From the IMG/VR virus record IMGVR_UViG_3300032053_000043, positions 1-64,000 of that record: 64,000 nucleotides of DNA. One strand, given 5' to 3'. The translations under genes were made by a program, and so were the position numbers. Every line of letters begins with the position of its first letter. Position 1 is the stretch's first letter. Shown here one piece after another: positions 3,504 to 49,109 of the stretch. Source of the DNA: a virus. Under the pieces are notes generated by a model. That model was not told where the DNA came from and made no database searches. It was given only the letters and a program-made list of their open reading frames with translations.

Positions 3504-3584
3504 ATGCGAACATTGATTCTGCCGATCGTTTTCGCGGCCACTGCCCTGGCACAGTACGCCGCGCGGAGGGCCGCATGCCGATGA
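3504..3584 (+). CDS. Possible 26-residue hydrophobic peptide
   Basis: Begins at ATG 3504 seven bases after GAGAGGAG. MRTLILPIVFAATALAQ reads like a cleavable signal peptide or single membrane anchor, followed by a short basic tail. It ends exactly where a heptamer array begins. It may be the remnant of a longer exported protein disrupted by the minisatellite. Confidence 0.35.
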   Translation: MRTLILPIVFAATALAQYAARRAACR

Positions 3585-3611
3585 AGGCGGAAGGCGGAAG
3601 GCGGAAGGCAG
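3584..3611. repeat. Heptamer minisatellite (AAGGCGG, 4 units)
   Basis: Three exact AAGGCGG units and one AAGGCAG, between a small hydrophobic ORF and the next gene. Confidence 0.85.
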
Positions 3612-5840: not shown

Positions 5841-6071
5841 ATGGCGCAGAAAGACACAGTGAAAACGGTTAGCGACATGATGCGCGAACTTCAGGCCGAG
5901 ATCGAGGCCGTCAAGAACGGCAAACTCGATGAATCCAAGGCGCGCGTCGTGGCCCGGTTTCGCGGCCTGCAACTGAAGACCGCGGAACTCAACCTGCAAT
6001 TCCAGCGGCTCACCAAGGGGCGGTTGCCCCAAACGGAGATGCCGCTGTTGCAGGCGCCGAAAGCAGCGTAG
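5841..6071 (+). CDS. Small helical phage protein (76 residues)
   Basis: Starts at ATG 5841 behind AAAAGGAGAG. The sequence is almost entirely helical (MMRELQAEIEAVKNGKLDES, then FRGLQLKTAELNLQF). It resembles a common class of small phage proteins with an L-x-x-G-K-[IL]-D helix hairpin, which have no assigned function. Its TAG stop (6069-6071) lies inside the first AGCGGC anchor of the following array, so the array begins precisely at the gene's end and may share its transcript. Confidence 0.7.
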   Translation: MAQKDTVKTVSDMMRELQAEIEAVKNGKLDESKARVVARFRGLQLKTAELNLQFQRLTKGRLPQTEMPLLQAPKAA

Positions 6072-6552
6072 CGGCATTATTCGATGCCACGCGATGTGAC
6101 CGGACAAAGCGGCAGGACTAGACTCTATGGCGCAACATGCGACCGAGCGGCGCGACTCTACACGACCAGACTGCACGCAGCGGCTAGACCGCACCGGGTT
6201 GCACATGACCGGACTGGATACCACATAGCGGCTCGATGTGACTAGACAATATGTTACTTTACGGAGCGGCTAGATCGTACACCATGTTATTGGACAAAGC
6301 GGCCCGACAGGGCATGGCCCAACGATACTTAGCGGCACGGCGTGACTGAATCGAACGCAATGGAACGAGACTAACTCGAACGCAGCGGCCCGACAGTAAC
6401 AGTATATGACGAGACACAGCGGCGGGACAGCGTAGCACCGCATGGCATGCGATCCCACCCGACTCAGCGGCACGGTTAGATCGTACTGAACATGATTCCG
6501 CCACACGTAGCGGCTCTGCCGCACTCCGCCAGATTGAACGAGACGTAGCGGC
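6070..6552 (+). repeat. Pentamer-phased array with 13 AGCGGC anchors
   Basis: AGCGGC starts at 6070, 6108, 6146, 6179, 6227, 6265, 6298, 6331, 6384, 6418, 6466, 6509 and 6547. Spacings are 38, 38, 33, 48, 38, 33, 33, 53, 34, 48, 43 and 38, all of the form 8+5k except one extra base. Counting five-base units from each anchor gives 76 units (one six-base variant taken as a unit). Of these, 65 read NNN-A-pyrimidine and 10 NNN-G-pyrimidine; the only exception is TAACT. The base before the A is often G (GAC/GAT). The first three bases of each unit vary freely. A five-base period precludes ordinary coding. The array fills the 500-base leader of the gene at 6577. It is not a known repeat class that I recognise. 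Confidence 0.9.
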
Positions 6553-6576
6553 CCCACACAACGAAAGGAGACAGAC

Positions 6577-7326
6577 GTGAACTATACAAAAGAGCAACTC
6601 ACCGAAGCGTACATTGCGCGCACGGCGGTTATTACCGCCCAATGCGCCTTTTCAACCGACCTGGTAGGCGGACAACCGGCCGATGAATCCGGAGTCGCCG
6701 CCTACGTGAAGCACCACCTGAAACTCGAAGGTGACGAAGCAACAGCGGCCGTCAAGCGCATTATGGCCGAAGAAATTGGAGAACGCGAGACCACCCCGGA
6801 AACCGGCGAACTGGAAGCCAAACTCAGTTACGGGATCAACGTCATCCGGCGCACCGAACACGGCCCCTGGATTGGGAACTGGATGGTCAAAGCCTGCTTC
6901 AAGCAGGCGGCCTCCCGGCTGCGCATCTTCAAGGAGATCATCGGCACCAAGGGCGACATGGCCGAAGCCGGCCAGGTATCCGCGGTCGGCATCAGCTTGG
7001 TCGAGGCGGATCACCCTGAGCGCATCTATCTGCGCGCCGCGAAACAGGACAAGCCCGCCTCGACCTACTGGCGGAAATTCATGGGACGCGTGCAGACCCC
7101 GCGCGGCGAGAAATCCATCATCCACGATTCGGAATGCGCCGATGCCGGGAGCCGGTTCGCCTTCCAGTACCGACTACTGCCGGGAAAACTGAAAGAAGAC
7201 GATCTGCGCGACATCTGCGCCTGCGCCATGATCGTCGGGCTCGGCAGCGCCAAGGCCCTGGAATGCGGGAAGTTTTCCATGCCCGCGGGATGCACCATCA
7301 ACTTTCCGAACGGGAAGAAAGCCTAA
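6577..7326 (+). CDS. Phage protein with possible Cas7/RAMP-like fold
   Basis: A 249-residue protein starting at GTG 6577 or the equivalent first codon, behind GAAAGGAG. Residues 97-115 (GPWIGNWMVKACFKQAASRL) resemble the loop and helix of Cas7/RAMP proteins (PGSSLKGxLR type). Residues 193-233 (FAFQYRLLPGKL, then GLGSAKALECGKF) resemble the late strand and the Gly-rich GxGxxxxxGxF loop of those RNA-binding ferredoxin folds. It also recalls phage and prophage hypothetical proteins with IKGFLKEA and GLGQWRNSGKGRF motifs. This is motif-level resemblance read by eye, not a proven homology. It lies 24 bases after the pentamer array and before the integrase; the array may be its ligand or leader. 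Confidence 0.5.
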   Translation: MNYTKEQLTEAYIARTAVITAQCAFSTDLVGGQPADESGVAAYVKHHLKLEGDEATAAVKRIMAEEIGERETTPETGELEAKLSYGINVIRRTEHGPWIGNWMVKACFKQAASRLRIFKEIIGTKGDMAEAGQVSAVGISLVEADHPERIYLRAAKQDKPASTYWRKFMGRVQTPRGEKSIIHDSECADAGSRFAFQYRLLPGKLKEDDLRDICACAMIVGLGSAKALECGKFSMPAGCTINFPNGKKA

Positions 7327-48725: not shown

Positions 48726-49109
48726 GTGCGTAACTTACTTTGTACCGCTGCGGTGCTTATGGCAGTAGCTATTGCCGTAGGCGCCATCGACGAGGAGACA
48801 AAAGACATGAAACCCATCCAACTCACTAGTGAGGAAAGAATCACCGCTGAAGCCCTTGCACTAAGAGTGCGTACCGCTGAGCAAGAACTTGCCTTATTGG
48901 AACAACGTCACGCAGTTGTTTTACAACAACTCCCGTTTCTCCGTCAGAAGCGTGATGGTTACGCCAACGAAGTTCTCGCAGAGCACAAAGCTCTCAAAGG
49001 AAGCACAATAAACTGGACCGACGGAGTTATTATTCCTCCAACGCCAGAGGCAAAGCCTCCAAAGACGGAGCCCGCGAGCGCGAAGAAAGATGAATCCAAA
49101 ACGAAGTAA
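48726..49109 (+). CDS. Exported coiled-coil protein
   Basis: 127 residues from GTG 48726, with AAGGAG upstream. Signal peptide (RNLLCTAAVLMAVAIAVGA), then a coiled coil (LALRVRTAEQELALLEQRHA) and a Pro/Lys-rich tail. In an early operon such a protein may act on the host envelope, for example in exclusion. Family not recognised. Confidence 0.6.
   Translation: MRNLLCTAAVLMAVAIAVGAIDEETKDMKPIQLTSEERITAEALALRVRTAEQELALLEQRHAVVLQQLPFLRQKRDGYANEVLAEHKALKGSTINWTDGVIIPPTPEAKPPKTEPASAKKDESKTK

Follow-up and report, generated by a model that had tools for sequence, protein, structure and literature searches.

The locus and its five-base phase

What is encoded by a tract of about 480 bases that keeps a five-base rhythm and stands directly before the gene of a small phage protein? 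The tract lies in a window of 64,000 nucleotides (positions 1 to 64,000 of IMG/VR record IMGVR_UViG_3300032053_000043), which was taken from a virus record of 75,103 bases. Genes for a terminase large subunit, portal/head-tail proteins, a major head protein and a tyrosine-type integrase were identified, and this gene content marks the virus as a tailed phage that is probably temperate. The tract (6070-6552) sits between an open reading frame (ORF) of 76 amino acids (5841-6071), just 5' of it, and the gene of a 249-amino-acid protein with a GTG start (6577-7326), hereafter called the RAMP gene from its predicted fold. The last junction of the tract and the run-out to the ribosome-binding region of that gene (AAAGGAG) occupy 6547-6576, and all of these features are on the plus strand. 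No promoters or terminators were found by consensus scan. Elsewhere in the window, a perfect tandem repeat (GAAGGCG, 3.9 copies) was observed at 3583-3609.

The tract contains 13 copies of the anchor AGCGGC (at 6070, 6108, 6146, 6179, 6227, 6265, 6298, 6331, 6384, 6418, 6466, 6509, and 6547), which bound 12 segments with a total of 76 full five-base units. When these were read in strict phase, 61 had the form NNN-A-Y, 10 the form NNN-G-Y, and 5 were misfits, i.e., 71 of 76 (93.4%) conformed to NNN-purine-pyrimidine. Four of the five misfits, located in segment 6384, trace to one additional base after CCGAC. Once this slip was allowed, the counts became 65, 10, and 1 (TAACT), exactly as reported by a first-pass annotation made from the letters alone. 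That annotation had also put the chance fit at about one in four, which agrees with shuffles of the bases within each segment (2000 replicates; mean 25.4%, maximum 43.4%), and it had proposed autocorrelation at lag 5 as a check. Identity was indeed 0.383 at lag 5 and 0.355 at lag 10, with lags 15 and 20 also elevated, against values of mostly 0.2-0.25 at other lags. Likewise, the array parser assigned the tract (span 6060-6617) a score of 176.6, compared with at most 10.5 in shuffled controls.

All segments of the tract are 5n+3 bases long because two free bases stand before every AGCGGC, and the anchor therefore resets the phase between its AGC and GGC halves. The tract can thus be written as 12 complete modules delimited by AGC/GGC, all on the plus strand, of the form GGC-NN-(NAY-NN)n-AGC with n = 5-9. 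Specifically, six units are found in modules 1 (6070-6107), 2 (6108-6145), 5 (6227-6264), and 12 (6509-6546), five in modules 3 (6146-6178), 6 (6265-6297), and 7 (6298-6330), eight in modules 4 (6179-6226) and 10 (6418-6465), and seven in module 11 (6466-6508). Module 8 (6331-6383) is the longest, with nine units, and holds the misfit TAACT. Module 9 (6384-6417) comprises five units plus the extra base, a phase slip that was inferred by the array parser too.

Several ordinary sources of such a pattern were rejected. Chance or base composition was ruled out by the shuffles and by the blind finds in other contigs described below. Protein coding was dismissed through an all-against-all ORF comparison, in which no conserved ORF overlapped the array other than those that overlap the RAMP gene, in line with the original view of the period as real and non-coding. 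Known RNA families (hammerhead and others) gave no Rfam match at six loci, and a structured leader was discarded because the folding z-score of the array RNA was 0.49, no better than shuffles. By these same two measures, no structured 3' tail was seen for the array.

Related viruses carry the array and the protein together

When the 6577-7326 protein was used as the sole query, no relative was retrieved from viral (IMG/VR), phage, or genome collections, and plasmids returned chance-level E-values only. The family was opened up by the array pattern. A scan of IMG/VR for two anchors with phased units, with no protein information, returned ten stretches on six viral contigs, all of which share the segment grammar. 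On five of them a gene for a homologue of the protein is present (28-58% identity, E-values from 5.7e-18 to 2.6e-95). Family-profile searches then added five further contigs (L037, L041, L043, and subsequently L089 and L093), and each of these has a five-base array beside the RAMP gene on the same strand. At least ten other viruses share the pair, and in all 11 gene-bearing contigs the array and the RAMP gene lie on the same strand. Across the record of the window and nine related contigs, the arrays obtained parser scores of 67-465 (shuffled ceiling as above), and the genome-wide maximum of a model-free period-5 scan fell within the array in eight of ten. Family members are known solely from IMG/VR contigs, and a profile scan of genome contigs with one narrow pattern detected no cellular homologues.

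The absence of a conserved phase in related genomes had been set beforehand as the outcome that would count against the pattern. The phase is present in the arrays of the related viruses, and the suggested tie to the 6577-7326 protein is borne out by the recurrence of the pair, with a protein that is predicted to bind RNA. The idea that the first three positions of each unit are free needed amendment. Over 202 modules from ten contigs, positions 1 and 2 are at maximal entropy (1.98 and 2.00 bits), whereas position 3 leans towards G (44%; 49% in the window), and G ranks first or close to first there in every contig. Position 4 is A in 84% and position 5 a pyrimidine in over 99% of cases, both figures being somewhat flattered by an array parser that favours A and Y at these positions. 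Of 160 raw distances between neighbouring anchors, which do not depend on the parser, 125 were 3 mod 5. The shared grammar is GGC-NN-(NAY-NN)n-AGC, in which n is usually 4-9 with a median of 6 units (7 NN pairs), and at the AGC/GGC junctions two triplets abut with no free bases between them.

Some members depart from this scheme. L043, the most distant homologue (24% identity), has the anchor TGCGAC in place of AGCGGC and an unchanged phase rule, and in L089 the fourth unit position is looser. Near-identical duplicated modules were observed at L028 and L030 (in G006 and G003, respectively), where whole anchor-bounded units are repeated. These apparently represent recent whole-module copying, which would be expected of modules that evolve as units.

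Arrays were also observed away from the gene. Contig G005 (IMGVR_UViG_3300023202_000383) carries a clean array that follows this grammar, with 38 units and 7 anchors, at 119327-119573 on the minus strand (loci L027 and L029), and the family protein was not detected anywhere on this 256-kb contig. It may be an orphan array, or its partner may be too divergent to see. In G001, small array-like tracts with scores of 22-26 lie off the main locus, at 48962-49052 (plus strand), 91964-92039 (minus strand), and 93910-93965 (minus strand), and these are possibly stray modules.

Apart from ORFs that overlap the RAMP gene, the 76-amino-acid ORF, a candidate accessory (vap-like) gene, is alone among the neighbours within 6 kb of the RAMP gene of the window in being shared with other loci. 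Its homologues are found at a near-equal offset 5' of the RAMP gene in G001, G002, and G007 (blastp E-values of 5e-6 to 1.4e-5) and also in G003 (E-value 3.6e-4), which makes four relatives in all. Since only this ORF and the RAMP gene are common to the loci, the cassette appears, from gene content, to move between otherwise unrelated gene neighbourhoods.

A predicted Cas7-like RAMP protein beside the array

The AlphaFold2 model of the 249-amino-acid protein reached a pLDDT of 35 for the protein alone and of 78 with nine homologues. The top PDB matches of this predicted structure in Foldseek were Cas7-like RAMPs (Cmr, Csm3, and type VII Cas7; E-values about 1e-6), VIA-align against Csm3 gave a Z of 10.8, and the best viral structure match is annotated as a 'Cas system-associated RAMP superfamily protein'. 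A single family member matched the PADLOC Csm4 model (E-value 1.4e-5) and, weakly, type IV Cas7, which taken alone would be modest support. The protein has a glycine-rich loop, GLGSAKALECGK (residues 221-232; 7237-7272, plus strand), within which G221, G223, S224, and G231 are invariant among 11 homologues. The modelling thus predicts a Cas7-type RAMP fold and a protein that would bind the array RNA.

This prediction bears on the comparison originally drawn with TRAP, under which the protein would bind five-base RNA repeats 5' of its own gene and regulate its expression. The window itself, where a five-base period precedes the RAMP gene, would suit such a leader. Among the relatives, however, the term leader proves too narrow, as the array follows the gene in G004, G008, G009, and L093 and flanks it on either side in G001 and G002. 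With as many as 38 junctions and 217 units (G009), the arrays also far exceed the size of a leader. The free positions are at maximal entropy, and the variable bases resemble guide information. Moreover, the TRAP ring protein binds (G/U)AG RNA repeats, whereas the fixed bases here are A-Y and the neighbour is predicted to be a Cas7-type RAMP. We rejected a TRAP or trp-leader type of RNA on these last grounds and consider regulation of this kind exceedingly unlikely.

A second alternative places the function in the DNA, with double-stranded sites of the iteron, centromere, or origin kind whose A-Y step is read every half turn. Five bases are indeed close to half a helical turn, and both anchors and phase are conserved. 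On the other hand, the array always keeps to the strand of the RAMP gene in the gene-bearing contigs, and the one-base slips, together with a three-base phase reset at each junction, would turn the sites round the helix. The ligand of solved Cas7 RAMPs is single-stranded guide RNA, and described Vipr loci with the same period yield small RNAs, according to the preprint cited below (PMC13142463). A DNA-level role is accordingly rated as highly improbable.

The closest relatives of the protein appear to be Vipr proteins. The first-pass annotation knew of no described repeat class of this form, but a preprint from 2026 (PMC13142463) reports VIPR, a possible precursor of CRISPR that uses a GGY/NN code and in which Vipr, a phage RAMP, is accompanied by VIPR RNAs (vrRNAs) of YNNGG five-base repeats. 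We took ALH47069.1, the product of a RAMP-like gene of fitting length beside GGY tracts, as the Vipr of Escherichia phage SUSP1. Profile-profile comparisons with Vipr (SUSP1 and relatives from other phages) aligned 125-128 columns including the glycine loop, with P-values of 2.3e-4 and 5.1e-5 (the latter over 128 columns), and hhalign paired the GLGSAKALECGK loop with GVGDWRPRFGRF of SUSP1 Vipr. When the Vipr profile was run over every ORF of the ten contigs, it matched the array-adjacent protein of G004 and nothing else (E-value 0.007). PHROG 4652, the family of SUSP1 Vipr, matched two family members weakly (E-value 0.03).

A probable template for short guide RNAs

We consider it very likely that the stretch is the template of a short guide-RNA array for the neighbouring RAMP, and that the two form a divergent VIPR system in a temperate phage. 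Computation established the five-base phase and its conservation, the same-strand pairing with a single protein family, and the RAMP fold predicted for that protein. From the analogy with VIPR we infer the guide function, the processing at AGC/GGC, and the read-out rule in the family of the window. The array would be transcribed, and RAMP subunits would coat the transcript, each gripping one NAY triplet. The two variable bases before each triplet would then be offered for pairing, so that two target letters are read and one is skipped per unit, a proposal that follows the 1-nt skip rule of the preprint (PMC13142463). The leaning of position 3 towards G looks more like protein contact than target information, which favours two letters plus a skip over three letters. 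The AGC/GGC junctions, which lack free bases between triplets, would separate individual guides with 6-10 NN pairs each, and it is probably there that the RNA is processed or the guides are bounded. The bound complex may block transcription in rival phages, prophages, or satellites, and the small ORF upstream could be a helper.

Natural targets were sought under nine read-out rules in the family contigs and known Vipr loci (about 1.7 Mb, both strands), and no enrichment over shuffled guides was obtained. Exact patterns from three long guides had 0, 2, and 0 matches in IMG/VR, the two matches being those of module 8 and at the level expected by chance, with the wobble placement of the skip base not established. 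A contiguous NNN reading of the guides against phages gave no match. This absence of targets weighs little because the search was limited to exact patterns, three guides in IMG/VR, and about 1.7 Mb of local sequence.

The missing targets would also fit an RNA decoy or structural scaffold, i.e., an array RNA coated by the RAMP in which the variable bases hold no target information, and maximal entropy at positions 1 and 2 is expected from drift as well as from guide choice. Such a role is at odds with the discreteness of the modules and with the use of the variable positions as guide letters in the closest characterised relatives (PMC13142463). We regard a decoy or scaffold as quite unlikely and retain the guide-array reading.

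Comparison with known systems

The Cas7 backbone of class 1 CRISPR-Cas (Csm3, Cmr4, type VII, and type IV Cas7) shares the predicted fold with the family of the window and, as the model suggests, an oligomeric RNA-binding backbone. In class 1 CRISPR, base pairing is broken at each sixth position, in contrast to the five-base period found here. Membership of class 1 was rejected, as there are no identical (CRISPR) repeats in the array region and the shared neighbours are the RAMP gene and the small ORF only, with no cas genes among them.

The likeness to VIPR is closer. In the preprint (PMC13142463), seven types with differing array architectures are described, with SUSP1 and a Pseudomonas fulva prophage (type II) as examples, and the definition admits a GGY triplet or 'a related consensus'. 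The variable NN letters of the vrRNAs read DNA with one base skipped, and most natural targets are rival elements (PMC13142463). As in the SUSP1 and P. fulva systems, the locus is minimal and phage-encoded, its single RAMP protein has a glycine-rich loop, another small gene lies close by, and the adjacent tandem five-base repeats combine two hypervariable bases with a conserved triplet that ends in a pyrimidine. The fold search and the profile match point to a Vipr-type RAMP (RRM core and glycine loop), and the adjacent repeats with hypervariable NN were found at the DNA level. Known Vipr loci in isolated phages all have five-base arrays beside the gene. Among these, Vibrio phage 1.266.O and Listonella phage phiHSIC (L009 and L010) were seen to have RGC-NN tracts with hairpins and a repeated GGGGTAAAACTCAA between them.

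There are also differences. The triplet consensus of the family of the window is NAY, with G as first base in the proportion given above, rather than a strict GGY. Its tract is cut by AGC/GGC into modules with a median of 6 units, compared with described vrRNAs of 9-16 repeats and a structured 3' tail (PMC13142463), and no such tail is recognisable here. The protein, of about 250 amino acids, is similar to Vipr at the profile level only, and the accessory ORF has no sequence similarity to SUSP1 Vap1.

It is conceivable, at somewhat less than even confidence and judged against the part of the preprint available (PMC13142463), that the family is an undescribed VIPR type with an NN-NAY code and with AGC/GGC guide boundaries made by omission of the two free bases between triplets, in which one tract gives rise to 12 to about 50 short guides. 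If so, the phage would carry a programmable array for DNA recognition that has punctuation of its own. The family indicates that such tracts can have another fixed triplet (NAY) and can be punctuated by phase reset. The 11 gene-bearing loci, with about 200 modules, lie outside the characterised VIPR clades. They could be used to test noncontiguous guide reading by RAMPs, the separation of guides, and the universality of the two-letter, one-skip rule.

Phase-reset punctuation was also found, in a different form, in the Vipr clade of Gordonia phage UmaThurman and cyanophage Cy-LDV1 (L011-L019). Both groups have long RAMP-adjacent arrays, phase-shift junctions, and short modules, whereas the triplet in that clade is GGY, the junction is GGY-A-GGY, and module lengths are mostly 4 mod 5, as against 3 mod 5 in the family of the window. 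Since those arrays are junction-divided as well, AGC/GGC looks like a second form of that punctuation.
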